Source: a virus. From it: a DNA stretch of 25,897 bases. Shown here piece after piece: positions 7,097 through 24,984 of the stretch. The stretch spans positions 1 to 25,897 of IMG/VR virus record IMGVR_UViG_3300028025_000331; one strand, written 5' to 3'. The position numbers and the translations under genes were made by a program. Within the stretch, counting starts at the first letter, position 1. Every line of letters begins with the position of its first letter. A model generated the notes under the pieces. That model saw only the letters and a list, made by a program, of their open reading frames with translations, was not told where the DNA came from and searched no databases.

Positions 7097-7999
7097 CTAA
7101 CGGGTATAGTGGATTCTTATTGGATACTTGTCTGCCAACTTCAACGCTTCTTCATTCAGACGCTGTTGATAGAGGGCAAAGATGTAACGTGATGCTGCAG
7201 CACCTGCAGATGATGGTAACTTGGAATCGTTTAGATCGGCTTCAGCACTAGAGAGATTGATTCGTCCAGCGTCAAGATAAGACAGTAGTTTGTATGATGC
7301 GCCGAGTACGACCACATCGCTGCAAGAATCTGGTAGACCAGATACGTCAGAAAAATCATCTGTATTTGCGTCAAGAGTGTTCGGCGTGGCGGTATACCAA
7401 ACCTGAATTGTACGACCAGGTTGTACGTTTTCATAGATGTTAATTGTATTGTTTGTGTTGAAGGTGGCAGCATTTGCCATACCATCTAAGCGCCAGCGAT
7501 TTACTGGTAGCCATTCCTGGCTAGAACCAGTGGTTTGCCAAGAGATAAATAGGACACCTTCGCAGTCATCAGGCAATGGGTATGTAACCTGAGATGCGTT
7601 AAAGGTAAATGTGTAAGAGTTAATAATCCACAACTTAGGATAGAAACTGTTGATCGTATCGTTGATAGCCTTCTTAATAGAGTTACGTGGGAAGGTTGGA
7701 GATAGAGTTACTGGTGCATACTGTGAGTGAGGCGATGCTGTAGTTCCTTGATATCCACGACCAAAGCCTGGGATAACGTTCATTACGTTATTAGCCTTGT
7801 CAAAGGAATCAATCCACATTAGTTCATCATCAACTTCAATAATACCTTTGGCTAAGTTAGAAGATGAGCCAACGGTGATAGATGTGCTAGTGGTTGTTAA
7901 ACCAGCAGGGTTAGCAACATAGGTAATACGGTCTTGACGTAAAGCGTAACCTTGTAAGTTAGCCTTTACCTCGTCCACCAGTTCGTTCAGTGTTGGCAT
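7097..7999 (-). CDS. Head-tail adaptor-type protein (T7 gp11-like role), 300 aa
   Basis: The N-terminus MPTLNELVDEVKANLQGY is helical and is followed by a beta insertion (TTSTSITVGSSSN, IEVDDELMWIDS, GRGYQGTTASPHS). The second half contains AINDTINSFYPKLW, YPLPDDCEGVLFISW, EWLPVNRWRLD, IYENVQPGRTIQVWY and LGASYKLLSYLDAGR. It ends with a helical RYIFALYQQRLNEEALKLA. I recall this second half as a widely conserved block of phage head-tail connector or adaptor proteins. Length, helix-rich ends and the presence of a nozzle-type gene in the same block support the role of T7 gp11. The adaptor would sit between portal and nozzle. Its ATG overlaps the stop of the glycosyltransferase gene by one base. 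Confidence 0.7.
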   Translation of the reverse strand: MPTLNELVDEVKANLQGYALRQDRITYVANPAGLTTTSTSITVGSSSNLAKGIIEVDDELMWIDSFDKANNVMNVIPGFGRGYQGTTASPHSQYAPVTLSPTFPRNSIKKAINDTINSFYPKLWIINSYTFTFNASQVTYPLPDDCEGVLFISWQTTGSSQEWLPVNRWRLDGMANAATFNTNNTINIYENVQPGRTIQVWYTATPNTLDANTDDFSDVSGLPDSCSDVVVLGASYKLLSYLDAGRINLSSAEADLNDSKLPSSAGAAASRYIFALYQQRLNEEALKLADKYPIRIHYTR

Positions 8000-9069: not shown

Positions 9070-10312
<1,243 letters not shown>

Positions 10313-12016: not shown

Positions 12017-13198
12017 TTATCCGTTTGTTGCAGCAGACTCAATGCGATAGAGCGCTGCTTCACGAAGGCGTGCAAAGCCTCCGAAGTAGTACCAACCGAT
12101 TGTGCGGAAGCGACGTAGTGCGTCGATCTCTGGACCGATAACGGTTGAGATGTCTGCAGCCTGTGCTTCAGCCAATGCTTCACGACCTGCGATAATCGCA
12201 CGGTAGTTGTTGGTGAATGTAACAGTACCTGTGTCAGCAACTGATGTGATGTTAGATGCTGTAAGTGCATAGGTAAATGTTGTTGTTGATGGAACAGACG
12301 CGATTGTGTATGTTCCGTTGACTGCTGTGTTTGTTGTAGCAGCAACTGTTACAACCTGACCTACGCCAAGACCGTGAGCAACTGCTGTAGTAATAGTTAC
12401 TACGTTTGTTGTCAAAGCAACGTTGGTGATTGAAACTGTAGGTGTGATACCTGTAGCCAACTTTAGACCGTTTAGAACACGTGGTGTCTCAACGATGAAA
12501 GCGCCTTCGATAACGCCTACTGCACCAGCAACGAACGGTGTACGCTCAACGTACTTTGTTAGTTCCTGGAATCCACCTGTACCAGTTTCAGCGCGAAGAT
12601 CGGCTGACTGACGTGGGTGTAGGTATGCAGCATATAGTTCACCCATACGAGGCAATGCCTTGTTTGTGCGTAGTGATACAACAGCGTTACGGATGTCCGC
12701 AACTGTCATTGTGTCTACTGGTAGAACTGTTGCTGATGATGTTGGAGCAGTTCCTGATGGACCGTTTGAGTAGATCACGTTAGTTCCTGATGAAAGGACC
12801 TGACCTACTACGTTGTCGATAGAGTCTGCTGCGTTGTACGCGATGATGTCAGCAAGTGCTGAATCAACGTCGTTGAAAGAAGTTAGGTTTAACTTCTTTG
12901 TTGTTGTAACTGCTGAACCGTATTCGTTCAGTGTTACTGTAACCTGTGATGGGTTACCTAGTGCAATGCTTGAAACATCTGATGCTTCGCTCAATGTAGA
13001 TGTAGCCTGAGCCAAATCTGAATAGATTGAGAAAACAACTGATGATCCTGGCATAGCCTGTTGCACTGGCTTAACATCAGCAAGTGAGCGCATAACAGGG
13101 ATTGAACGCAATGCCATTCTGACATATTGATCGTACGCTGCTTGTACTAGATTGCTGATGCTAGACGTGGTGGTGGGGGTACCTGTTGGAATTGCCAT
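12017..13198 (-). CDS. Major capsid protein, HK97-fold type, with inserted Ig-like domain, 393 aa
   Basis: The protein begins MAIPTGTPTTTSSISNLVQ and shows PVQQAMPGSSVVF near residue 44. It continues with NEYGSAVTTTKKLNLTSFND near residue 91, IAYNAADSIDN, GELYAAYLHPRQSADLRAE, TPFVAG and YRAIIAGREALAEAQA. I recall these blocks from major capsid proteins of the N4-gp56 type with an HK97 fold. Residues about 252-327 form an Ig-like module (VSITNVALTTNVVTITT, HGLGVGQ, NGTYTIASVPSTTTFTYA) placed between two conserved capsid blocks, so it should project from the capsid surface. The scaffold gene lies directly upstream, and a strong hairpin follows the stop. The ribosome site GAAAGG lies about 11 bases before the ATG, rather far. 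Confidence 0.85.
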   Translation of the reverse strand: MAIPTGTPTTTSSISNLVQAAYDQYVRMALRSIPVMRSLADVKPVQQAMPGSSVVFSIYSDLAQATSTLSEASDVSSIALGNPSQVTVTLNEYGSAVTTTKKLNLTSFNDVDSALADIIAYNAADSIDNVVGQVLSSGTNVIYSNGPSGTAPTSSATVLPVDTMTVADIRNAVVSLRTNKALPRMGELYAAYLHPRQSADLRAETGTGGFQELTKYVERTPFVAGAVGVIEGAFIVETPRVLNGLKLATGITPTVSITNVALTTNVVTITTAVAHGLGVGQVVTVAATTNTAVNGTYTIASVPSTTTFTYALTASNITSVADTGTVTFTNNYRAIIAGREALAEAQAADISTVIGPEIDALRRFRTIGWYYFGGFARLREAALYRIESAATNG

Positions 13199-13229: not shown

Positions 13230-13697
13230 TTAGAGTCCAGACATCCTAATTACATCATCCAGTTCTTCTCTGCTATTTGCATTCATAAGTTTCTGCATAA
13301 TGTTGTCGTTGTGTTCAGGAGAAACTCCTGATTCGACAGTATTAGTCATACGCTTATATGCAGCAGCATCGGCTGGATTTACGTTAGGTGTTGCCTGGGT
13401 CTGATTAGTTTCAATCCCGAATACATCGGAATAATCTTCTAACCATTTAGATACAGACTCTTCAGTTGGGTCTATATCCTGTGGGATAAATGCAGCAATT
13501 TTGCTGTTTACCCCGCGACTTGCGAGGGCATCTTTGATTGCTCGTTCTCTTTGCGCTTTGTTAAGACTTTCAAACTGTGCCTTTAGTTCGGACAGTTCCT
13601 TGTCTTTTTGCTTAGTAGCCTTACGCAGTTGTTTTACAAGGTCATTGCCTGATGAGTCCATTTCGAAGTCATCATCCTCGTAGTCATAGTTGGACAT
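13230..13697 (-). CDS. Scaffolding protein, 155 aa
   Basis: The start is chosen at 13697 because GGGAGAAGGA lies just before this ATG; an upstream ATG at 13712 has no such site. The N-terminus is acidic (MSNYDYEDDDFEMD). Next is a coiled coil, LVKQLRKATKQKDKELSELK and further to about residue 55, then ALASRGVNSKIAAFIPQD and WLEDYSDVFGI. The C-terminus is a charged helix (REELDDVIRMSGL). Small size, acidic head, coiled coil and helical C-terminus directly upstream of the capsid gene are the usual properties of phage scaffold proteins, which guide procapsid assembly and then leave. The SR-GVN-KIAAF-P block is one I recall from such genes. Confidence 0.8.
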   Translation of the reverse strand: MSNYDYEDDDFEMDSSGNDLVKQLRKATKQKDKELSELKAQFESLNKAQRERAIKDALASRGVNSKIAAFIPQDIDPTEESVSKWLEDYSDVFGIETNQTQATPNVNPADAAAYKRMTNTVESGVSPEHNDNIMQKLMNANSREELDDVIRMSGL

Positions 13698-13825
13698 AGG
13701 TCCTTCTCCCATTCTTGTTAGATTGACGCAAGCCTCACATTCACCTTGGGGAAAGTGGTGTGGCTCTTGCTACTGGTTTTAATCTCACTCCAACGGACCA
13801 GTCGTCCCGTTGGCAGGCTTGTTAT
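13698..13825 (-). promoter_or_regulatory. Structured untranslated leader before scaffold and capsid genes
   Basis: This is the longest gap in the window. On the minus strand it contains an outer inverted repeat (13815-13821 with 13729-13735, CAAGCCT/AGGCTTG). An inner hairpin at 13790-13813 has nine pairs, one bulge and a five-base loop, and a weaker stem lies in 13741-13760. The three stems could form a multi-branched RNA just upstream of the scaffold ribosome site. I see no convincing sigma70 promoter here; a promoter of an unknown phage or host factor remains possible. Confidence 0.4.
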
Positions 13826-15208
13826 TTAGAAACTACCAGCACGCTCACGTGCTATGGCTCCTGAACCAGCACTGCCGCTAAATGCAGCAGTTTCTAGTTG
13901 TGTTAGTTTCTTACGTTGCTTGGAAGCCTCTGTTGATCCAGCAAGTCCAAAGACTTCAGTCTCTGCTGTTTGCTGTGTGTATGGAGATTGCTTATAGATC
14001 TCTGCTAGTTGGCTACCGCGAGGTGCAACTTCTGCAACTGTCTGGAAACCTTGCTGTGCTTGCTGCTTAGTAATACCAGCAGCGGCTAGTTCTTCTGCAC
14101 GAGTCATACCAGTCTTAAGTCCTGATTGAATTGCAGCGCCACCAATTTCAGCAGCAGTTACCTTACGCTTGATCTGCTCAACAGCATTAGCAGGATCTAG
14201 TACGTAAGCCAAGATATCTCCATTAGAGATACCTGGATAAAATTCTTTAAGTGCTCTAGCAACTTCTGGGTTAGAGTTAACTACACGATTCTGCGCTGTC
14301 TGGATGCGGTCTTCTAGTTCTACTGCAGATACATCTCCAGCCAAGAACTTCTCGAAGCCACTCTGGACACCTAGTTCGCCCTTTGTGTAATAGGACTCTG
14401 GCATACCATAACGACGCATTACATCCTGATACTGGTCTTCAGTACCGATGTACTCAGCCTCAGATAGTGCACGAAGCCCCTTAGCCACACGCTGTGCGTT
14501 TGCAGCAAAGCGCTTCTTGTAGGCATCTGTTTCACGTAGACGAAGAGTAAACTCTGATGGAGATACACCTTCTTCAATTAAAGACTTGAGTGGGCTTACT
14601 AAAGCCTCAAGTCCATACTGCTTAAACTCTGAATATAGAAGGTCGTATGCTGATTTACGATCTGCTTTTTTTTCTTCCAAGTTTGCTTGATACATAGCAA
14701 ACGTGTCTGGGTCGTTAAATTTTCTTCCGTCTGATGCTGTATAAATTCCACCACCAACGCCAACACCATAATCTAGCCCGTCCTCATCGTCTGATCCTTG
14801 ATCGCGTGGTATTTTAGGCGAGACAACAGTAAACTCTCCATCGGCTCCTTGAGTAAATGCTGCTCCATAGGTTTGAGATGAAGTAGGGCTCGTTGCTACA
14901 GATAACTGATTATATGTTTTTCCTTCTTGATCTGTAAATGTTTCAATTTTGTAACCTGTCACACCTTCAGATGGACCAAAGAATTTTTCTAATTCTTTAG
15001 GAAATGGTCCTGGGGTAAAACCTGACGGAATCATACCTTCAGGCTCACTAAAGGGTATACCAGTTGTTGGGTTATACTTTTTATTTTCTTCTTTTAGTAT
15101 CTTTGCAAGTTCTTCTTCTGAAACTGGAGGATTCTTTGGACCAAAAACCCTCTTAGGTTGTTCTTGTCCATCATCAACCATCATTAGTTCTGGATTATAT
15201 CTAGCCAT
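13826..15208 (-). CDS. Large helical virion protein, probably internal, 460 aa
   Basis: Residues 1-150 are low in order (Pro/Gly-rich, with a DDEDGLDYGVGVGGG stretch near 140). From about 170 to 400 it is helical: LLYSEFKQYGLEALVSPLKS, SPSEFTLRLRETDAYKKRFA near 216, LSEAEYIGTEDQYQDVMRRY, DVSAVELEDRIQTAQ, and ILAYVLDPANAVEQIKR. I recall this helical block from structural regions of actinobacterial phages, without an assigned function. The position between portal and scaffold and the similar EFT-RL--[ST]D motif in the next upstream gene suggest paired internal proteins. The C-terminus ends ARERAGSF. The ATG lies two bases after the stop of the 545-aa gene. Confidence 0.6.
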   Translation of the reverse strand: MARYNPELMMVDDGQEQPKRVFGPKNPPVSEEELAKILKEENKKYNPTTGIPFSEPEGMIPSGFTPGPFPKELEKFFGPSEGVTGYKIETFTDQEGKTYNQLSVATSPTSSQTYGAAFTQGADGEFTVVSPKIPRDQGSDDEDGLDYGVGVGGGIYTASDGRKFNDPDTFAMYQANLEEKKADRKSAYDLLYSEFKQYGLEALVSPLKSLIEEGVSPSEFTLRLRETDAYKKRFAANAQRVAKGLRALSEAEYIGTEDQYQDVMRRYGMPESYYTKGELGVQSGFEKFLAGDVSAVELEDRIQTAQNRVVNSNPEVARALKEFYPGISNGDILAYVLDPANAVEQIKRKVTAAEIGGAAIQSGLKTGMTRAEELAAAGITKQQAQQGFQTVAEVAPRGSQLAEIYKQSPYTQQTAETEVFGLAGSTEASKQRKKLTQLETAAFSGSAGSGAIARERAGSF

Positions 15209-15210
15209 TA

Positions 15211-16848
15211 TTACCCCTGGAATCCGAAGTCACGTAGGACTTTAAGTACTGAGTCTGATGATTCAGTGCGAGCATTATCTGTGTACTGCCAGCGTGGATC
15301 TTTGCGAAGAATTCGCTGGAAATCATAGAGAGATGTTTCCTTCTCTGGTCCAATAGCCATACGTAATGTCTTATCGTCAAGACTAATAGAATCAGGTGCT
15401 ACTTCAAGAACTGATGCCATAACATTTCTGTATGGAGCATAGATATCCTTGAGGTCTAAACCTTGGTCTAGTAGGTTTGCTACCTTGTCTGGTAGACCTA
15501 ACTTTGCAGCACCACGGATTGTATTCTTAAATGTCTCAACTGATTCACCTTTAGCAAGGCGCTGTAACCAGTCATTGATATTAGAACCAAATTGTGTATC
15601 TAGGTTAAATCCATTAGCACGTGCTGTTGCACGAAGCGATGTTAAATCTGCTCCAACTGATCCACCTAGTTGTGTACCAGGCTTGTACGAGATAAGCGCT
15701 GATAATTCACGGTTAATGATGTTTGGATCTTTGTCATTGGCTGAGTCATACATACGCTTGACAAATGCATCAAGGCGCTCAGGCGACATTGTTCCAGTAA
15801 GACCTGAAGCAGCGGCTTCAATGAATGCTTTGGCAGATGCAAGACCCATAGCATAAGAAGATGTAGTCTTTAACTGACCAATTTTAGAAAGGATTGCATC
15901 TTTCTTTTGCTGTGTATCAGCAAGTTCTAATTGTTGATTATACTTAGCAAGAGTTTCATCATATTCTCTGCGTTGTGCATCACGCTTTGCATAAGTAGTA
16001 CCATTGCGAATAGCCCAATCAGATGCTGCCAGACGACGAGTAAACTCCTCTGGCTCCATATCATCTTCAGAAGTTGCTGGATCCTTAACAGCATCAATAA
16101 GAAGTTGTTTTAGTTCATCATCGTATAGAAAAATAGAATCTACGTTTCCATACTTAGAACGAGCAAGTGAATAGATGGCATTGATATCTTCAGCACCAGT
16201 AGCAGTTTTAGTGCCAGTAACAGTACGTGCACTAGCCTTCCTAATACCTTCTAGAGTGGTTGTATCAACCACATCTTCCTGAGCAAATGCTGGAGATGAT
16301 ACGGCCTTAGTCTTCTTTGGAGGAAGTTTTGCTTGGTCGCCAACTCCTGGAGTTACTACTTTATTCTTTGCTGCTGCAGCCTTAGATGCAGCAGTATCAG
16401 TAATAGCCGTACCAGTGGTCATTTGGACATTGCCCAGTGGACCAGTCTTTGCTTTTTCTGTAGGCTTTACCTTGATATCAGGAAATGCTTGCTCAACCGC
16501 TGGAGCAATTGAATTAAATTTATCAGTCAAATCTTTTTGATCGGCCTTTAACTGAGTTGTGTTTTCTCCGCGAGCCTCAGCCTTAGCAATGGCTAGTTGC
16601 TTTTCTCTTATCTTAGTTTGAAGACTTACATAATCTTTTGCTGGTTTTTCTAACTTTTGTAATTTAGCAAGATCATCAAAATCTTTTTTGGCATCGGCTG
16701 TAAGTTTATTGATTTCATCATTTACTTTTTTTGTTTCAGCGTCTGTGAACCAACTGCGCTTTGATGCTTCAAGTTCTCTGATTTTCTTTACTTTTGCACT
16801 GTACTGGGAACTAAGTTGATTTAACTTAGTGGTAACTGGACTAGCCAT
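15211..16848 (-). CDS. Large helical virion protein, probably internal, 545 aa
   Basis: Residues 1-120 are a long Lys/Glu-rich coiled coil (NQLSSQYSAKVKKIRELEAS and further). A low-complexity linker follows (about 130-200). The region 225-545 is helical, with IYSLARSKYGNVDS, PEEFTRRLAASDWAIRNGT near 265, a second coiled coil near 285-320, and MSPERLDAFVKRMYDSAND. The last 90 residues include NVMASVLEVAPDSISLDD, RKDPRWQYTDNAR and the final VLRDFGFQG. I recall the RKD-RWQYT-NAR...VL-DFGF end from phage structural regions. Its ATG overlaps the stop of the 250-aa gene (TAATG). Its role as an ejected or core protein is inferred from context; a tail protein is the alternative. Confidence 0.6.
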   Translation of the reverse strand: MASPVTTKLNQLSSQYSAKVKKIRELEASKRSWFTDAETKKVNDEINKLTADAKKDFDDLAKLQKLEKPAKDYVSLQTKIREKQLAIAKAEARGENTTQLKADQKDLTDKFNSIAPAVEQAFPDIKVKPTEKAKTGPLGNVQMTTGTAITDTAASKAAAAKNKVVTPGVGDQAKLPPKKTKAVSSPAFAQEDVVDTTTLEGIRKASARTVTGTKTATGAEDINAIYSLARSKYGNVDSIFLYDDELKQLLIDAVKDPATSEDDMEPEEFTRRLAASDWAIRNGTTYAKRDAQRREYDETLAKYNQQLELADTQQKKDAILSKIGQLKTTSSYAMGLASAKAFIEAAASGLTGTMSPERLDAFVKRMYDSANDKDPNIINRELSALISYKPGTQLGGSVGADLTSLRATARANGFNLDTQFGSNINDWLQRLAKGESVETFKNTIRGAAKLGLPDKVANLLDQGLDLKDIYAPYRNVMASVLEVAPDSISLDDKTLRMAIGPEKETSLYDFQRILRKDPRWQYTDNARTESSDSVLKVLRDFGFQG

Positions 16849-17600
16849 TATCCCCTCCCAATGAACTTGTTGAATACTTCATAGAATCCCATAACGCTAC
16901 TTGCCTTAGCAGGATCACCCTTAGATACTTCTTCGATAAGAAATGCCTCTGGATTAAATGCTGCTTGAGTTGTGATCTGGCGTTGTACGCCACCACCCAT
17001 ACTCTTGTACTCAGTCTGAGCAAGGTTTTCTGGCTTGGCCATTTGTGTTTGAATGTTCTTTGTATACTTAGCAATCTGTGCCTTGGATGCACCAGAACCT
17101 GTTAGATCACGGAACACTTTGTCGATAGTTGCTTCGATACTATCTGGACTAAGATTTGTTTGTTGCTGGATCTTGGTAATCTTTTCAGCACCACCGCCAT
17201 CATCAGCAGTCTGCTTAGATAGGAATGATTCAAGATTATCTATTGGTGTTGTCTGTTGTGCTGCAGCAGGAAGAGCGGTAAATCGCTCACGTGTATAGGC
17301 ATTAAGATCTTCATAGGCGTTAAAGTAAGCATCTTGTAATTTAAGAGTTGGCTTACCAGTAACATCGCCACGATAATATCCTGCAGCCTTTAACTTCTGG
17401 GCAAGAGCCTTACGGTAATCAGCAGTAAATCCTTCAAAATCTTGTAGTAGTTTGTTTCGATCTGCAAGAGTTGGATCAGTAACTACAACATCTACAAGAG
17501 TCGTACCTTGGTATTGCTTAGTCTTTGATGTTGTGCCGCCTGTGATAATGACACCTGCTGGTACCTTCTTAGGGTCAAAAGGTATAAATGTCTCTGCCAT
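16848..17600 (-). CDS. Probable virion-associated protein, 250 aa
   Basis: The N-terminus MAETFIPFDPKKVPAGVIIT is followed by a short beta part (TTLVDVVVTDPT). Helical segments AALAQKLKAAGYYRG-type (residues 66-76: AQKLKAAGYYR) and KLQDAYFNAYEDLNAYTRER come next. The C-terminal half has LSPDSIEATIDKVFRDLTGS, KQIQTQM-like polar helices and SKGDPAKASSVMGFYEVFNK. The LKAAGYYRGDVTG stretch resembles the start of a peptidoglycan-binding repeat, but the rest of that domain is missing. It is TAATG-coupled on both sides to the giant 1610-aa gene and the 545-aa gene, suggesting a common internal complex. Confidence 0.5.
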   Translation of the reverse strand: MAETFIPFDPKKVPAGVIITGGTTSKTKQYQGTTLVDVVVTDPTLADRNKLLQDFEGFTADYRKALAQKLKAAGYYRGDVTGKPTLKLQDAYFNAYEDLNAYTRERFTALPAAAQQTTPIDNLESFLSKQTADDGGGAEKITKIQQQTNLSPDSIEATIDKVFRDLTGSGASKAQIAKYTKNIQTQMAKPENLAQTEYKSMGGGVQRQITTQAAFNPEAFLIEEVSKGDPAKASSVMGFYEVFNKFIGRG

Positions 17601-20600
17601 TAGTCACCAATCAATCTGCTAAATAAAACGCTATATGTGGAAGTTGCACTAGGATCTCCTGCTGCAATCTCCTGCAAGCGTAGTTGTAATGATTCTTTGT
17701 AAGACTTGCGAACCTTAATATCGCGGTCTGAGTTTGAGTTGTACTGAGTAGTAACTAAAATGTTATAGTCATCGTACTCACGTACCATCTCACGCAGACG
17801 ACCGATAGTAGGTCCAGTAAGGTTTGGTTCTTTAATCATCTCACGTAAATCAGCAAATGCTGCGTCACGCTTGATGGTGTTTTCTGCTGCACTAGCAAAC
17901 TCCATACGTAGTAATGGACGTGCTGCTAGAAATTCCTTTGACCAAGCCTGCCAATTGTCGTTGACAATTCTGCGCTCACGGTCTGTGAATGAACCCGTCA
18001 AGGCTTCATCACGAATAGCCTTTTGTGAGTAATAGACCTGCTCATCCTTGGCTACTGATACTTCCTTGAGGTAGTCGCCAATTAACTTCTTCTGGCGATA
18101 GCCTTCATTCATCAATGTCTGGTATGCATCGTAGGTAAATTCACCAGTATTTGGAATCAAGAATGCTGAACCCTGTGGGTACTTCTTAACCAAAGCACGG
18201 TTATCTTCTACCCACCTAGATGCTGCATTACTGGACTGGAAGTATGGCAATACCTGTGGATCTGACTCATTAACAGTAAATGGAACTTGATTAGGGAAAT
18301 ACTTTACCCAATCTGCCATTGCCTCGCCGTATGGATCAGAAGATCCCTGCTCTGCATACTTGTTAATCAGTTTGTTCCAGGTTTGCTTGAAGTTTACGTT
18401 TCCATTATCTCGTGCCCACTCAGCCATATCTGATTTTAGAGATACAGATGGGCTTGCTGGAGCAAAGAATCCTGCTACGAAACGAACACCAAGAATACTT
18501 TGAACGCTTGCTTCTAATGATTCTTGATAATCTTTGATCTCACCTGGAGATGCATCTGCACCTGGTGTTCTGCCTGCTGCTTCAAGATATGTTACAGCCT
18601 TGCGGAATGCTGATGCGTATTGGGACTCACGTTCATCCTTATTCATAGCAGCCATCAATCTATTGACGTGTGCTGGAAGCAATGCGTTAATAAACGGCTG
18701 ATCTTGTCCAATAGGTCCAAGTGTTGCACGCTCTACTGAACCTAGTTCCTTACCAATACGAGCAACAATTGCGTTCTCAGACTTAGCAAGACTTGGTACT
18801 AGAGAATAGATGGTGTTCAATGGCAATGCTGCCAATGGACCAGAAAATGTTGGTGCCCAAGACTCAGGATCAAAGGATGGTGTAAGCATCTTTAACTTTG
18901 CACTGAACTCTAGTGGCAATGGTGCTACAAACTTGTCTCCAAGACCGAATACATCTAGTGCTTTCTTCATTGCACCGTAGACAGGAGCCAAACCTGGGTA
19001 GACAAAGTACGCCTCACCCTGGTCATCCTTCTGAACGAATCCAGAATGGCTTACACCTTCGTAAGTTAGTGCTGCTTTCTGTATAGCCTCTGGGTTATAC
19101 TTAACAGTACGGTACAAACGACGATAGAAGTCTTCAGTTGCACGATAGAAACGAGCAAAGTTACGTGCAGACCACGCTAATTGCGTACGAAGTGCAGGGT
19201 TATCCACAAATGCAAGGGTAGATTCCAGTGCAAGTTCCTCAGATATGCGTACAATCTGTGACTTTGCTGCATCTACTGCTGCTTCACGTGCTACAGGGTC
19301 TGTAATTCCCTTTGTGTAAAGGTTAATCAGGTCTTCTGCGTAGCCACCTGGTGCATTTAAGTCATCGTAGTAGCGAACTGCTGCGTTAACTACCAATGGT
19401 TCACGTGAGAAACGTGCGTTTGACTCACCTAACCAGGTCCATCCACGCTTAGATAGGTCGGTAAGGATGTTCTTGCTTTCCATTACTGGCATAAATGCAG
19501 GTCCTGCTACAGATGCAGGTAAATCTTCAATGTTTGTAGGTAAATCTTCTAGGTTAAAATCTTCTAGATCGATGTATGCCTGACCGTTTTCATCTACCTT
19601 GCGAATCTTACCTAACAAATCCATATTAACAGACTTGCCATCTTGACGACTAAAGAGATTCTTTAGGTCATCATAGATTGCTGCTGCGTGTTGCTCAGGT
19701 GTGTAACCTTCTTTTGTGTAACGCATAAAAGTTGTAAGTTGATCGCCGAAAGATGCGATATGTGGTGCAAGTTGAGAGACAAATTCTTCTTGTGTAATTG
19801 TATCGTCAAACAACTGAATACCACGTTCACCGATATCATCGGTTGAGCGAATAATAATGTTCCAACCCCAGGCAAGTTTACCTTGGTCATCGATAAGAGA
19901 CTTCTGGGTAAAACTACTTCCACCTATTGGGCGCATTGCAGTGTCATTAAATGTAAGAGCAACTGTCTTGCCGTTGCGATCTGCAGTTGCCATCGCACGT
20001 GAAGATGCATTAAGACCGCTGATTGCGTTAGAGGCACCTTCGCCTGCTCCACGCAATAGTGTCTCTAGATTGCCATACTTAACAAAGTCCTTGATATGAC
20101 TTGGTAACTTCTCGAGGATATCTGCATTAGCGACATCATCAATCTTAGAACCTAGTAGCGCCTCTGCCATAATAATACGGCGTTGCTCTAATCTTTGACG
20201 TGGTGTTAATCCACGATAGGTAGCAACTTCGCTTTCAGAAAGAATGCCACGCTTAACAAGATCATCAGTAGCGCCTACTTCACCATTAACTGCAGCAAGG
20301 CGAGTTCTGAAATACTCTATATCCTTACGCTTGGCAACACGGTTAATCATACCTAGGTCTTGTCCAGAACCTAAGCGAATCTTAGTTGCTGTGCGACGTG
20401 AACGTGCAGTAGCAAGAAGTGACTGACCATTTAAGATACCCATTGTGTAATCTTCAATAGCGTTACGTACTGGGAAACGAGGACCAGCGATAGTTCCAAA
20501 TGTCCACGCATCTACTGTGCGCTCTGCGCCCTCTTTGTACTGGATACCCAATACACGGCTTAGGAAGGACTCACGTCCTGCAAAGCGCTGCATATCACGA

Positions 20601-22432
20601 AGACCAATAACACGAGATACATTAGATGTTTGTGAAAAGTAAAGTGCGCTATCAATACCATCAAGTTCTGATGGAATAGATCCATCTACAGAACGTGCTG
20701 AGTATGAAGCACCAGAAAATACATCGTCTCGAATAGCATTAAGTAACTTACGTCCACCTTCGGTCTTGTCTAGACCAATAAGGTTTCCAACAGTTGACTG
20801 GATGCCCTTCATCATTGCTTTGCGTTGACCAAGATCTGCTGATGCATAGATCTCAGTAAATGCTCGTGCGTGGTATGAGCCTAGCGCCATACGTGAGTAA
20901 CGGAAAAAGTCTTGTGTTGCTGTCTTTGATGTATGGTCAAATGCTTCATCATCTATCAGGGAAGCAATAGGTGTGAACTTGGCCTTGATACGATCAATAC
21001 GGTCAGCAAAGTATTCTGGAGTAAATCGTTTAATGTTCTGGCGACCTTGAATAATCTTGCCAGCAAGTTCTGCACCTGCTTCTACTGGAGATAGCGTTTC
21101 ACTACCTACTACAGCAGATAGGAGAGCATCCTCATCTGTTAGTTCCATTGTGCGAATTAGCGCACGTGAGTCTTTATCTATATCAAACACACGTCGTCCT
21201 GTTGTAAGAGCAAGAACTCTTGCCTTACGTGCAGGTGACATACGTGGTGCTAACTTGATACGAGCACCTGCTTGACCATAGAGCATAGGCTCAATCTTGG
21301 AAGCATCTGAAAGAAAAGCCTTAGCAGTATCTATATCCCATACGCCACTAAACTCTTTTTCGCCAAATGACTTAAAGGATACAATAAAGTCATCGCTTAG
21401 TTCTGGTGCTAAATCGTTAAGTGCGGTACGTGCTTGTGCAATCTCATCGATGTTACCTGATTCTTTTGCAGCAACGTACTTAGTAAAGCGATCTGTGTAA
21501 TCTGTCCATAGGTTCTGTACATTCTTTGTACCAAAGATATCTGTAGTATCAAAGTACTTAGATACCTTTGCAGCGCTACCAAGTTTGGCTGCTGCTGCAT
21601 ACTTGCCAGTAATTTTAAGAGCCTGTGAACCACCAAGATAAATCTTACGTGCCTTGCCAAGAAGAAGGGTTGGATCCATAAAGATTCGGTAGGTTGCATC
21701 TGTTGCACCTGAGATCCAAGAATATAATGGACCCTTACCCTCTAAGTCTTGAGGCAAGAATAGGTTTGCTAACTGACGACCTGGAGAATACTTAGCAGCG
21801 TTTACTTCAGCAAGTGCATCACGTAGTAGCGGATCAATAATCTCGCCTGTTTCGCTCTGCTGTGCTTCTGCTGCAATACGCTTTTCTTCTTCATTCTGTG
21901 CTTCTGCAAAGATAATCTCTGGAGCAACACCTGCAGCAATACGCTTTGCAACGTTTACTCGTGCGTTACCGTAACGAGATACTGCTGTATTGATACGATC
22001 TTGGATAAAGACATTCTCACCATCACGACCTGCTTTGCCCCAGGCATCACCAAAGTTAATGTTTTCGTTTGTAGCAATAGCACCAGCACGGTAGATGCGT
22101 GTCATCGTATCTGATGCGTAATCTAATACGTCAAATAAAGTCTTTGCTGCAGTCTTAAAAGGTAGAAATGCATAGTGTGCACCAGATTCTAACCAAGAGC
22201 GATTTGGGTCATCATCTGGTTTGTTAGTACCAGTTAACGCTACAAGAGATTGCTTCTTGTTATTAGGAAGTTTATTAAACTCTTCTGCTGCATACTGCTT
22301 AGGTAAATCAGATAGACGTTGATGAGTAGACAATGCTGAAGCAAGTCCATCAATCTGACGTGTCTGAGACGGGTTTAATCCTGCACGAAATGCTGCTTGT
22401 GCAAGGTTAGAGTTCTTTGGCGTTTCTGCCAT
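17600..22432 (-). CDS. Giant virion protein, probable internal/ejection protein, 1610 aa
   Basis: This is the largest gene of the window. The product is mostly helical, without signal peptide and without catalytic motifs I can name. Visible blocks include YAFLPFKTAAKTLFDVLDYA near residue 90, SWISGATDATYRIFMDPTLL near 240, and GPRFPVRNAIEDYTMGI near 660. A block RNFARFYRATEDFYRRLYR lies near 1095, followed by YEGVSHSGFVQKDDQGEAYF. A proline-rich region with GPLAALPLNTIYSLVPSL lies near 1200, and a long charged helical C-terminus closes the protein. I recall RNFARF-R--EDFYRR-YR plus a GPL-x-PxN segment from very large structural proteins of actinobacterial phages. It lies only three small genes after the portal. 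Internal core and DNA-ejection protein is the best inference; the absence of tail-tube genes argues against a tape measure. Confidence 0.6.
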   Translation of the reverse strand: MAETPKNSNLAQAAFRAGLNPSQTRQIDGLASALSTHQRLSDLPKQYAAEEFNKLPNNKKQSLVALTGTNKPDDDPNRSWLESGAHYAFLPFKTAAKTLFDVLDYASDTMTRIYRAGAIATNENINFGDAWGKAGRDGENVFIQDRINTAVSRYGNARVNVAKRIAAGVAPEIIFAEAQNEEEKRIAAEAQQSETGEIIDPLLRDALAEVNAAKYSPGRQLANLFLPQDLEGKGPLYSWISGATDATYRIFMDPTLLLGKARKIYLGGSQALKITGKYAAAAKLGSAAKVSKYFDTTDIFGTKNVQNLWTDYTDRFTKYVAAKESGNIDEIAQARTALNDLAPELSDDFIVSFKSFGEKEFSGVWDIDTAKAFLSDASKIEPMLYGQAGARIKLAPRMSPARKARVLALTTGRRVFDIDKDSRALIRTMELTDEDALLSAVVGSETLSPVEAGAELAGKIIQGRQNIKRFTPEYFADRIDRIKAKFTPIASLIDDEAFDHTSKTATQDFFRYSRMALGSYHARAFTEIYASADLGQRKAMMKGIQSTVGNLIGLDKTEGGRKLLNAIRDDVFSGASYSARSVDGSIPSELDGIDSALYFSQTSNVSRVIGLRDMQRFAGRESFLSRVLGIQYKEGAERTVDAWTFGTIAGPRFPVRNAIEDYTMGILNGQSLLATARSRRTATKIRLGSGQDLGMINRVAKRKDIEYFRTRLAAVNGEVGATDDLVKRGILSESEVATYRGLTPRQRLEQRRIIMAEALLGSKIDDVANADILEKLPSHIKDFVKYGNLETLLRGAGEGASNAISGLNASSRAMATADRNGKTVALTFNDTAMRPIGGSSFTQKSLIDDQGKLAWGWNIIIRSTDDIGERGIQLFDDTITQEEFVSQLAPHIASFGDQLTTFMRYTKEGYTPEQHAAAIYDDLKNLFSRQDGKSVNMDLLGKIRKVDENGQAYIDLEDFNLEDLPTNIEDLPASVAGPAFMPVMESKNILTDLSKRGWTWLGESNARFSREPLVVNAAVRYYDDLNAPGGYAEDLINLYTKGITDPVAREAAVDAAKSQIVRISEELALESTLAFVDNPALRTQLAWSARNFARFYRATEDFYRRLYRTVKYNPEAIQKAALTYEGVSHSGFVQKDDQGEAYFVYPGLAPVYGAMKKALDVFGLGDKFVAPLPLEFSAKLKMLTPSFDPESWAPTFSGPLAALPLNTIYSLVPSLAKSENAIVARIGKELGSVERATLGPIGQDQPFINALLPAHVNRLMAAMNKDERESQYASAFRKAVTYLEAAGRTPGADASPGEIKDYQESLEASVQSILGVRFVAGFFAPASPSVSLKSDMAEWARDNGNVNFKQTWNKLINKYAEQGSSDPYGEAMADWVKYFPNQVPFTVNESDPQVLPYFQSSNAASRWVEDNRALVKKYPQGSAFLIPNTGEFTYDAYQTLMNEGYRQKKLIGDYLKEVSVAKDEQVYYSQKAIRDEALTGSFTDRERRIVNDNWQAWSKEFLAARPLLRMEFASAAENTIKRDAAFADLREMIKEPNLTGPTIGRLREMVREYDDYNILVTTQYNSNSDRDIKVRKSYKESLQLRLQEIAAGDPSATSTYSVLFSRLIGD

Positions 22433-22833
22433 TACAGACCTCTAGATACGGCTTGCTGGTAAAGGATTGCTATTTCACCATCTGTATCGTATGGAAGCAT
22501 TTGAGAAAGAATGTCAGATAGTTTTTCTGACTGTCCGTTGTAGCCCATTACCTCTGGTCCTGGACCTGGGCCTACTGCTACACCTGAAGTAATTGGTTCA
22601 TCAGGGCGTTGGGTTGGTGCATATAATTCTGTGACAGGTGGTTGGGCAGCCTGTGCTGCAGCCTGAACTTGACCTGTAGGTAACCCGCGAACATCTGCTG
22701 TTCTAGCGGTAGGTGCTCCTGCTATTTGTTCTTGCATAGCCTTACGGTCACCATAATTTTGTGATGCTGGTAGATCTGTACGAACGGAGAATTTACCAGG
22801 TCCTGATACGCCTCTAATTGGGTTATCTGCCAT
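22432..22833 (-). CDS. Small Pro/Gln/Ala-rich protein, 133 aa
   Basis: The sequence is disordered in its first 100 residues (RGVSGPGKFSVRTDLPAS, then GQVQAAAQAAQPPVTELY, VGPGPGPEV). It ends with a short helix that looks folded: SDILSQMLPYDTDGEIAILY. The ATG lies inside the end of the 73-aa gene (11-base overlap) and follows AGGAGG, a very strong ribosome site. Its stop overlaps the ATG of the giant gene. A linker or chaperone for the giant internal protein is possible, but nothing in the sequence proves it. Confidence 0.55.
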   Translation of the reverse strand: MADNPIRGVSGPGKFSVRTDLPASQNYGDRKAMQEQIAGAPTARTADVRGLPTGQVQAAAQAAQPPVTELYAPTQRPDEPITSGVAVGPGPGPEVMGYNGQSEKLSDILSQMLPYDTDGEIAILYQQAVSRGL

Positions 22834-23044
22834 CGGTTTCCTCCTGTATCTTTTCTAAATCATTTGCAAATTGCTCCCAAGCCTTATTGACTTTGGAGTT
22901 TCTATTAGCATTGTAAATTGCTATTTCCATAATTTCTTCTGTAAAGGTTTGCACAGAACTTGCAAGGTTGTGTACAAGACCTGTAAGGACAACTAAAAAA
23001 TCAGCGAAGTGTATTGGACGTGGAACATCGTTCTTATTTTCCAC
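22823..23044 (-). CDS. Small helical protein with GTG start, 73 aa
   Basis: The start is set at GTG 23044, because the perfect GGAGGT at 23052-23057 is 7 bases away; a TTG at 23050 would leave only one base between. The product begins MENKNDVPRPIHFADFLVVL and continues GLVHNLASSVQTFTEEIMEI. It ends with a charged helix (WEQFANDLEKIQEETDGR). One amphipathic or hydrophobic helix lies at about residues 13-30. I do not recognise the family. Its position between portal and giant internal protein suggests head assembly. Confidence 0.55.
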   Translation of the reverse strand: MENKNDVPRPIHFADFLVVLTGLVHNLASSVQTFTEEIMEIAIYNANRNSKVNKAWEQFANDLEKIQEETDGR

Positions 23045-23229: not shown

Positions 23230-24984
23230 TTATGCTGCCCCGCCAATGGCGGCTAGTAGTTGGCCTATATCTGGACGTTGAGCAGCAGCGGGTGCGCCTC
23301 CTGGTTGTTCTGGAGTTGGCTGCGAGGCAGGGGCAGGGAGTGCTCCCGCTGCTGGAACTTGTGGTGCACCCTGCATTAGTTCTGGTGCTATTGGCATCTC
23401 TGGCGCTGGTTCTGGCGCAAATGCCTTACCAATAATAGTTTCTAACTGAAGACCCTTTTGACGGCCTTGGATAACTTCTGCAATACGAGTAATGATTTGA
23501 GATGGATCTTGACCTTGCGCTGCAAGAGCAGGTATTGCCTGTGCATACTGAGCAACAGCAACGCGAAGAGAGTCGCGCATTTCTTCAATGTCGACACGTT
23601 GTTCCTCCTGGGTAACGTTGAGTTCCATTGGGATCTCACGACGTACGTAATCACGAGAAACTAACTTATCTGAACGCATCTGTAACAATGCAATGATTGC
23701 ACGGTTAGGATCCATACCAGACATAATTCCGTAACGAACATCTACACCGTAGTTGCCATCGATCTGCTTTGATGGGATGTACTTCATATTAAACGGAGTA
23801 CCATCATCTACGCCCTTGATTTCCTTGGTCATATTGCCAAAGATCTTCTCATCTACTTCAAAGCAGAGAGAAGCAAGGTCTGTAAACATACGGGCAAACT
23901 GTGCTTGTGCTGACTTGATCTGTGTATCAAAGCCTGCCTGTAGTGCTTGCACACCACGGCCTGTAACGATAGATGCATCGATGTTACCTGAGCGAACCTC
24001 TGGGTAACGAGAACCTAGACGTAATTCACGCTCTAGTACACCTGATTCTTGGAAGACTCCAGGTGGTAGTTCTAGTGGAACACGTCGAATACCTTGTGGA
24101 TTGGCAGAACGCATAATCGCATCTGGACCAAGTGCCAACTCTTGCACATCCTGTGGGATAGCAATAGGTGCTTGGATAGATTTTTCTGCTGCTTGGATCT
24201 GCAATACTGCAAAACGAGCACGAGCAAGTTGAACTGATAGAACATCATCAAACTGTCCACGTGCTTCACCGTCAATAGATGAGCGCATAGCAACGTAGGC
24301 CATACACTTTCCAATAGGGTTTGGAACGTTTGATAGTACTAGGTTCTTACGCTCTGGGATAAAGATTAGATCTTGGTCTTTGTCGTGGTAGCGAACTAGT
24401 GACACATAAGGTGAGCCAGGAGAATAAACATTCTTTGGCATAATTTGGTCATAGAACTCTGGGTACTGCATTGCTAACGTTTCAGCATCAGATGCCATAA
24501 CTTGTGTAAGCGAAACTGTACGACCGAATCGATCAATTTCAGGATAAGTACCAAAAGGATTAAGCAGACGTATTCTCGGATTATTGGTTTCATAGTCCAT
24601 CTCCACCATACCTGGCAACATACCGTAGGTATTAAACCAGTCAGCACCAGTATACATTTGAATTTGTAGTTCAGATGCACTAATGTAATGGTTAACAATA
24701 CGAGTACGTGTATCTGCTGCCTTACGTGCTGAGTCTGAAACCATATTGGTTGCAGCGCAGTTGAACGATGGTAGCGGTGCCATTGCTTCTGCAAGGTCAC
24801 GCGCTGCCACGTCAATGAAGTTAGCAACTAGAGGCTTTGGGTATTCCTCAGAAAACATTGCAGGGTAAACCTTGCTAATGTCTCCCTGACGTACAGAGAG
24901 CACATCACGCATTCTCTGGTCACGTGCGGCGTAGCGTGTTTGAAGGCGATTAACCTTTGCTACTACCTCTTTAGTTGATAACAA
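23230..24984 (-). CDS. Portal protein, 584 aa, TTG start
   Basis: The portal is the dodecameric ring through which DNA enters and leaves the head. Visible blocks are LQTRYAARDQRMRDVLSVRQ near the N-terminus, PKPLVANFIDVAARDLAEAM, GADWFNTYGMLPGMVEMDY, IRLLNPFGTYPEIDRFGR, and VSIVTGRGVQALQAG-type sequence (ASIVTGRGVQALQAGFDTQI) before the long helix. The C-terminal 90 residues are Pro/Ala/Gln-rich and disordered. I recognise the TGRGVQALQ-GFD block and the general order from phage portals. The start is TTG: AAGGA lies 6 bases upstream and no ATG is near. The TTG start may lower output relative to the capsid gene. Confidence 0.8.
   Translation of the reverse strand: MLSTKEVVAKVNRLQTRYAARDQRMRDVLSVRQGDISKVYPAMFSEEYPKPLVANFIDVAARDLAEAMAPLPSFNCAATNMVSDSARKAADTRTRIVNHYISASELQIQMYTGADWFNTYGMLPGMVEMDYETNNPRIRLLNPFGTYPEIDRFGRTVSLTQVMASDAETLAMQYPEFYDQIMPKNVYSPGSPYVSLVRYHDKDQDLIFIPERKNLVLSNVPNPIGKCMAYVAMRSSIDGEARGQFDDVLSVQLARARFAVLQIQAAEKSIQAPIAIPQDVQELALGPDAIMRSANPQGIRRVPLELPPGVFQESGVLERELRLGSRYPEVRSGNIDASIVTGRGVQALQAGFDTQIKSAQAQFARMFTDLASLCFEVDEKIFGNMTKEIKGVDDGTPFNMKYIPSKQIDGNYGVDVRYGIMSGMDPNRAIIALLQMRSDKLVSRDYVRREIPMELNVTQEEQRVDIEEMRDSLRVAVAQYAQAIPALAAQGQDPSQIITRIAEVIQGRQKGLQLETIIGKAFAPEPAPEMPIAPELMQGAPQVPAAGALPAPASQPTPEQPGGAPAAAQRPDIGQLLAAIGGAA

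Follow-up and report, generated by a model that had tools for sequence, protein, structure and literature searches.

A putative ejection-protein cassette exchanged on a conserved structural chassis in short-tailed phages of actinobacteria

This study concerns four large proteins encoded by a freshwater virus of actinobacteria, IMG/VR record IMGVR_UViG_3300028025_000331, whose 25,897 bases are called the window below; by gene content the genome is incomplete. The proteins are named p1610, p250, p545 and p460. A cassette that begins with g133, a small gene upstream of p1610, and reaches into the N-terminal part of p460 is swapped as one block, and the portal, scaffold and capsid genes form the conserved chassis that receives it. 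With a probability of roughly 0.7, the block is the internal or ejection-protein cassette of a short-tailed actinophage related to the Beephvirinae and to two Planktophila phages, E7 and F5. By analogy it would be a DNA-injection apparatus for a Gram-positive host, working like the ejection proteins of P22 and T7.

The original prediction had placed four open reading frames (ORFs) of 1610, 250, 545 and 460 amino acids (aa) between portal-proximal small genes and the scaffold and had given them one third of the window, and the coordinates confirm this. The main genes of the window all lie on the minus strand, and in this region they are transcribed in the order portal (584 aa, 23230..24984), two small genes, p1610 (17600..22432), p250 (16848..17600), p545 (15211..16848), p460 (13826..15208), a 160-aa scaffold-like protein (13230..13712) and the major capsid protein (12017..13198). 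The four large ORFs cover 8,607 of the 25,897 bases. One-base TAATG overlaps join g133 (133 aa, 22432..22833, phrog_8200), p1610, p250 and p545, and p460 starts two bases past p545, which suggests that g133 through p460 form a single translationally coupled unit.

Exchange of the cassette on its chassis

The clearest case of exchange comes from two isolates. Records OX376640 (L004) and OX376641 (L005), which carry the collection label "Caudovirales sp. ct2KA10", were identified by their assembly names and the accompanying paper as the Planktophila phages LanE43AprE7 (E7) and LanE43AprF5 (F5). That paper presents them as the first cultured phages of freshwater Nanopelagicales, both lysing the same strain (PMC10202952). 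Their identity is 96.3% in the upstream flank, which ends 88 bases into g133, and 97.7% in the downstream flank, which opens 9 bases short of the p460 stop; the 8,550 bases in between have no DNA similarity. The difference has been published as an island of 8 kbp whose hypothetical proteins lack homologues in the partner phage (PMC10202952). Profile searches found homologues of the window's genes in the F5 island in the same order: g133 (E 1.5e-7), p545 (3e-12) and p460 (8e-7). For the p1610 homologue a window-type profile gave only E 0.007, but phrog_10618, to which the Streptomyces counterpart belongs, gave 3e-13. The published island is a gene-for-gene replacement.

The same pattern recurs within the lineage, where the block varies far more than its flanks. 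At 60% identity, 51 non-redundant loci fall into 18 clusters for p1610, 26 for p545 and 21 for p460, and into 3 for portal, 3 for scaffold and 8 for capsid. Among 2,415 locus pairs, which share loci and are hence not independent, 83 combined a portal at least 90% and a major capsid protein at least 85% identical with a p1610 below 60%, and none showed the converse, p1610 at 85% or more with the capsid protein below 70%. One pair, L068 and L079, has portal, capsid, glycosyltransferase and adaptor proteins that are 100% identical, and p1610 proteins with no BLAST hit to each other. Gradual fast evolution in place could reach neither this pair nor E7 and F5, so it was rejected and the variation is read as exchange and not slow drift. 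Chimeric assembly could account for single contig pairs, and hardly for two sequenced isolates.

The edges of the exchange were mapped on 62 chosen pairs, of which 12 were dropped because they lacked a flank match or a gene and 50 were mapped. Counted from the start of g133, the upstream breakpoint lay at 6 to 690 bases (median 332); that boundary is in or just before this gene. The downstream breakpoint preceded the p460 stop by a median of 834 bases (interquartile range 842-706), which is the start of the conserved C-terminal domain of p460 (aa 180-460, 13829..14671; the variable N-terminus spans aa 1 to about 177). This domain is the proposed dock, which would usually stay with the capsid chassis. 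When the window was compared with four differently-cassetted relatives, DNA similarity ended at 14,628-14,676 and returned at 22,774-22,839, with short weak matches between.

Co-variation of protein identity was read over 49 loci. That of p1610 followed g133 closely (rho 0.82), p460 (0.43) and p545 (0.35) less so, and scaffold (0.16) and portal (0.13) least, and the portal-scaffold value was 0.73. By these values the genes fall into two linkage groups, the chassis and the cassette, and the cassette itself is reassorted further. The N-termini of p545 and p460 are highly diverse (20 clusters among 81 members and 24 single-linkage clusters among 80) and are swapped separately from the C-terminal domains; they are often low in complexity, with GT, PTG or poly-G runs (for example L057:6475-8694 and L004:15339-16928).

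Lineage, gene order and a shared helical module

A tblastn search with the portal found 31 phage records, 29 of them from Streptomyces phages and two being the ct2KA10 records above; the Streptomyces records that were opened, Manuel and Dennebes, are Beephvirinae. These relatives are short-tailed: Abafar, a Beephvirinae relative, is described as a podovirus with a 16 nm tail (PMC11536984), Destructrice likewise (PMC13097060), and five cluster BF phages as podoviruses (PMC9753666). Homology to the Beephvirinae/Planktophila-phage module was found gene by gene for portal (phrog_104, E 7e-17), g133, p1610, p545 (phrog_6654, E 8e-29), p460 (phrog_8424, E 6e-97), scaffold (phrog_7813, E 1e-47, with weak scaffold hits and a position matching the annotated scaffolding protein of Dennebes) and capsid (phrog_1357, E 2e-70, PF13252). 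For p1610, which has no Pfam family above cut-off and no significant PHROG, the link to the Streptomyces protein of about 1,650 aa was seen by profile only. The block belongs to this structural module.

The gene order had been called unusual for a T7-like block. It does differ from T7, whose record runs from portal (8), scaffold (9) and capsid (10) to tail (11-12) and only then to the internal virion proteins (13-16), but within its own lineage it is standard. The portal-to-scaffold order was identical in 49 of 49 IMG/VR contigs that cover the block (31 of the 80 contigs do not), and also in Manuel, Dennebes, E7 and F5. Among 19 related records, a set that excludes the fragmentary window, a WhiB-like gene, which is an actinophage marker, was found in all 19 and a T7-type single-subunit RNA polymerase in none, with the T7 positive control at E 1e-109. 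The block is therefore not T7-like, contrary to the original prediction, and its lineage is that of actinophage podoviruses.

The closest described layouts are those of the Beephvirinae Manuel, Dennebes and Abafar (cluster BF), which share with the window the series of portal, small genes, a protein of about 1,650 aa, one of about 275 aa, p545-like, p460-like, scaffold and capsid. Identity to the window is 44% for portal, 47% for capsid and 38% for the p460 C-terminal domain. They differ in that a tRNA array precedes the scaffold and that p545 has two counterparts, whose N-termini are NlpC/P60 and glycosylase-annotated; the window has one p545 without a recognized enzyme. E7 and F5 are of the same lineage and order, with portals 51-53% identical to that of the window; unlike the window, they have no separate p250 among their ORFs, and of their long proteins that of E7 is class A (26% identical to the window's, also class A) and that of F5 class B, the two classes being described below. 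Across the 49 contigs, 34 have room for a separate p250 between p1610 and p545 and 15 do not, and some p545 N-termini in loci lacking p250 (L027, L042 and L049 among them) resemble p250. This suggests gene fusion or fission between p250 and p545 in some loci.

The sequence profiles support the proposal that part of the set arose by duplication, with a helical module in common. AlphaFold gives p545 a fairly confident all-helical model of N-terminal hairpins (4-121), a disordered linker (130-218) and a conserved C-terminal domain (mean predicted local distance difference test score, pLDDT, 78.9, from a 75-row alignment); the conserved module spans aa 222-545 (15214..16185) and holds an internal repeat. 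In profile comparisons, the stretch of p545 at about aa 217-375 scored 44.0 against p250 (reversed control 14.0, with 16.9 the highest in 100 column shuffles; hhalign P 2.1e-6), 31.4 against the p460 C-terminal domain (reversed 12.8, best shuffle 16.3) and 30.0 against its own C-terminus (reversed 10.2, best shuffle 16.8). Control comparisons with other proteins of the phage gave P of at least 0.0076, and the direct profile comparison of p250 with p460 was not significant. In Manuel, genes 12 and 13 are adjacent tandem paralogues, 45% identical over 308 aa and both homologous to p545; the N-terminus of gp12 is an NlpC/P60 peptidase domain (E 3e-29) and gene 13 is annotated as a glycosylase. 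With the module common to p250, p545 and p460, these paralogues show that the set has grown by duplication.

The duplication had first been read from a motif, EFT.RL..[ST]D, shared by p545 and p460. The motif does occur once in each (at 268 and at 219), and 2,000 shuffled window proteomes did not contain it. The exact string is carried by 42 of 80 aligned p460 members and by only 1 of 81 p545 members, so the string as such is a quirk of this genome. It was rejected as evidence of duplication, while the profile similarity beneath it is real.

The ejection-apparatus reading and its rivals

Under the proposed mechanism, p1610, p250, p545 and p460 would be packed in the head or the tail lumen and held through the conserved C-terminal domain of p460. 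That domain would dock to the conserved chassis, with the p460 N-terminus and the other proteins forming an exchangeable injection set. On infection the proteins would exit via the portal and tail and make a path through peptidoglycan and membrane. In the Streptomyces relatives, cutting of the wall would fall to the NlpC/P60 and glycosylase-like N-termini, and in the window's lineage coiled and low-complexity N-termini may stand in their place. The cassette would move mostly as a set, as P22 gp16 and gp20 do, because partners must fit each other, and its variation would be maintained by factors, from the host or from superinfection exclusion, that act against injection.

Several known systems offer parallels. 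The P22 proteins gp7, gp20 and gp16 are also podovirus virion proteins whose genes are very variable and swap as partner sets; according to PMC10883804, few virion assembly genes vary as much as genes 16 and 20, hybrid phages need matching gp16/gp20, and SieA, an inner-membrane exclusion protein, blocks injection via these two. The P22 genes differ in being located after the tail genes and in serving a phage of a Gram-negative host, and they show no significant sequence similarity to the window set. The T7 core of gp14, gp15 and gp16 is likewise a set with one very long member, in which a hydrolase domain may move between members (PMC8954989), and differs in gene order; it gave no significant sequence match to the window set, nor a fold match to the p545 model. 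The block is accordingly not placed in either ejection-protein family, and the likeness would be in working. The hypervariable region of the pelagiphages HTVC010P and skadi is also a variable island with an internal virion protein (PMC10504331), but it belongs to other phages and hosts, and the passages covered report for it neither the exchange of a whole module nor two deep classes.

An internal core or ejection channel, as the original prediction had suggested, is plausible: the relatives are short-tailed, an SU10-type adaptor lies in the window, relatives carry hydrolase domains, and the proteins co-vary as one module. A number of points weigh against it. The virion location of all four proteins is a prediction, and most of the loci compared are metagenome contigs. 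Neither T7 gp14-16 nor P22 gp7/20/16 was matched significantly by sequence, the best values being an hhalign P of 0.035 and an hmmsearch E of 0.001 (the latter in a set of 10 sequences, with a p250 profile that had drifted); ejection proteins of the T7/P22 type often lack detectable similarity among themselves (PMC8954989). Foldseek found no PDB fold match to the p545 model at E<=0.001, and a second look gave mostly generic helical bundles aligned mainly to aa 1-124. The p1610 model (aa 411-1610) was unusable, with a pLDDT of 59. No recognized hydrolase was found in the window's own proteins, and Streptomyces annotators label the p545 paralogues "minor tail protein". The cassette is also loose internally, with the p1610-p545 rho at only 0.35 and the p545 and p460 N-termini forming many clusters of their own.

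No PDB sequence scored below E 0.2 in searches with p545, p460, p1610, the adaptor, the 735-aa protein and the portal, and a look for the host found no relative of p460 among the genome contigs searched. Segments of 19 residues with mean hydropathy of at least 1.6 were found in 0 of 81 p545, 0 of 80 p460 and 3 of 29 p1610 proteins, a measure that does not discriminate, as T7 gp14 and gp16 also stay under 1.6. PF16928, the P22 injectosome translocase, matched 4 of 81 p545 members with a best E of 0.004, too weak to be used.

The annotations of the p545 relatives as minor tail proteins, with their peptidase and glycosylase notes, would also fit a tail-tip module, in which the proteins build a short tail hub on the outside of the particle, equipped with enzymes that degrade the wall and varying for host recognition as tail fibres do. 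LysM, which Pfam assigns to three of 80 p460 members (a LysM regular expression did not confidently locate them), points the same way, and host-recognition genes are said to be numerous in metaviromic islands (PMC3909814). We consider this unlikely, since the block lies between portal and scaffold, away from the tail genes, while the tail adaptor and the fibre genes, the collagen-like one included, sit elsewhere in the window, and since E7 and F5 lyse one strain with different cassettes (PMC10202952). Somewhat less probable still is that p1610 is an injected cytoplasmic effector like the N4 virion RNA polymerase, with p250, p545 and p460 as packaging helpers and variation tracking host defences and not the envelope. 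The size of p1610 and its two deep classes would suit such cargo, but 29 diverse p1610 proteins hold no enzymatic family (only DUF3574, in two), and the p545 relatives bear wall hydrolases. The p1610 fold list, which included the N4 virion RNA polymerase (E 2.8) and T7 gp15 (E 5.1), was discarded as the model is unreliable, and these hits carry no weight here.

One very long protein downstream of a portal also recalls the tape measure of a long-tailed phage, with its neighbours as tail proteins, and a tape measure with a tail-tube gene elsewhere had been named as the finding that would overturn the original prediction. This is very improbable. The relatives are podoviruses by transmission electron microscopy with tails of 16 nm, the Destructrice paper reports no identifiable tape measure (PMC13097060), the window holds a short-tail adaptor, and none of the 20 window proteins scanned, from an incomplete genome, matched a tail-tube or tape-measure family.

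This adaptor is a head-to-tail protein of 300 aa (7097..7999; PF24175 SU10_adaptor, 36.4 bits against a cut-off of 27). After the capsid gene, transcription runs through several small genes, a collagen-like fibre, a glycosyltransferase, the adaptor, fibre genes and a 735-aa protein. The collagen-repeat fibre protein lies at 9070-9978 (PF01391, E 2.5e-40), in a stretch with a GC content of 57% against about 45%. Residues 254-321 of the capsid protein (about 68 aa) are 58% identical to part of the 735-aa protein (1815-2015). This C-terminal extension has no Pfam match and is absent from the capsid proteins of about 309 aa in many relatives, so it seems to be a decoration-type domain that was added or shared.

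Two classes of the large protein and their meaning

The 89 long proteins, redundant loci included, fall into two disjoint and exhaustive classes: class A with 73 (among them those of the window and E7) and class B with 16 (among them those of Manuel, Dennebes and F5). The classes are homologous at the profile level only (probability 99.6, E 1.3e-23). On a portal tree of 51 rows, 13 of them class B, the drawn topology requires at least 10 switches of class, and 6 are forced by well-supported branches; the tree came from a quick search with Shimodaira-Hasegawa-like approximate likelihood ratio test (SH-aLRT) support only, and 20 of its 48 inner branches are unresolved. Shuffled labels gave a mean of 11.8-11.9 changes, and 45-63 of 500 shuffles were as low as observed. 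The changes are close to those of shuffled labels, and therefore the classes reassort almost freely across the chassis tree.

A broader hypothesis, which we hold tentatively and think somewhat less probable than its contrary, is that two ancient, barely alignable classes of injection apparatus, plus many sub-types, reassort almost freely on one actinobacterial podovirus chassis by way of a single docking protein, p460, whose C-terminus would belong to the chassis and N-terminus to the cassette. The polymorphism would predate the split of the Streptomyces and Nanopelagicales phages, and would be kept by frequency-dependent selection at the injection step, through superinfection exclusion or host defence, and not by receptor choice. 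One strain is lysed both by E7, of class A, and by F5, of class B, which argues against receptor choice as the cause.

Parts of this picture are already in print: variable P22-like ejection proteins, an internal virion protein in the pelagiphage hypervariable region, and the E7/F5 island, which was left unexplained. Internal virion proteins also occur among metaviromic-island genes (PMC3909814). In the literature covered, which lay outside subscription papers, no paper named the E7/F5 island an ejection cassette or described two classes.

Descriptions of ejection proteins come chiefly from Gram-negative podoviruses, and phi29-like phages, whose hosts are Gram-positive, are said to lack them (PMC8954989, section 6). 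The exchange pattern accounts for the 8 kbp island reported earlier and leads one to expect a host factor acting at DNA entry. E7 and F5, near-identical phages with one host and two cassettes, are a ready natural experiment. If the ejection reading is true, a complete, naturally exchangeable set in phages of Gram-positive Actinobacteria would be a second, independent system for asking how a short-tailed phage crosses a thick wall.

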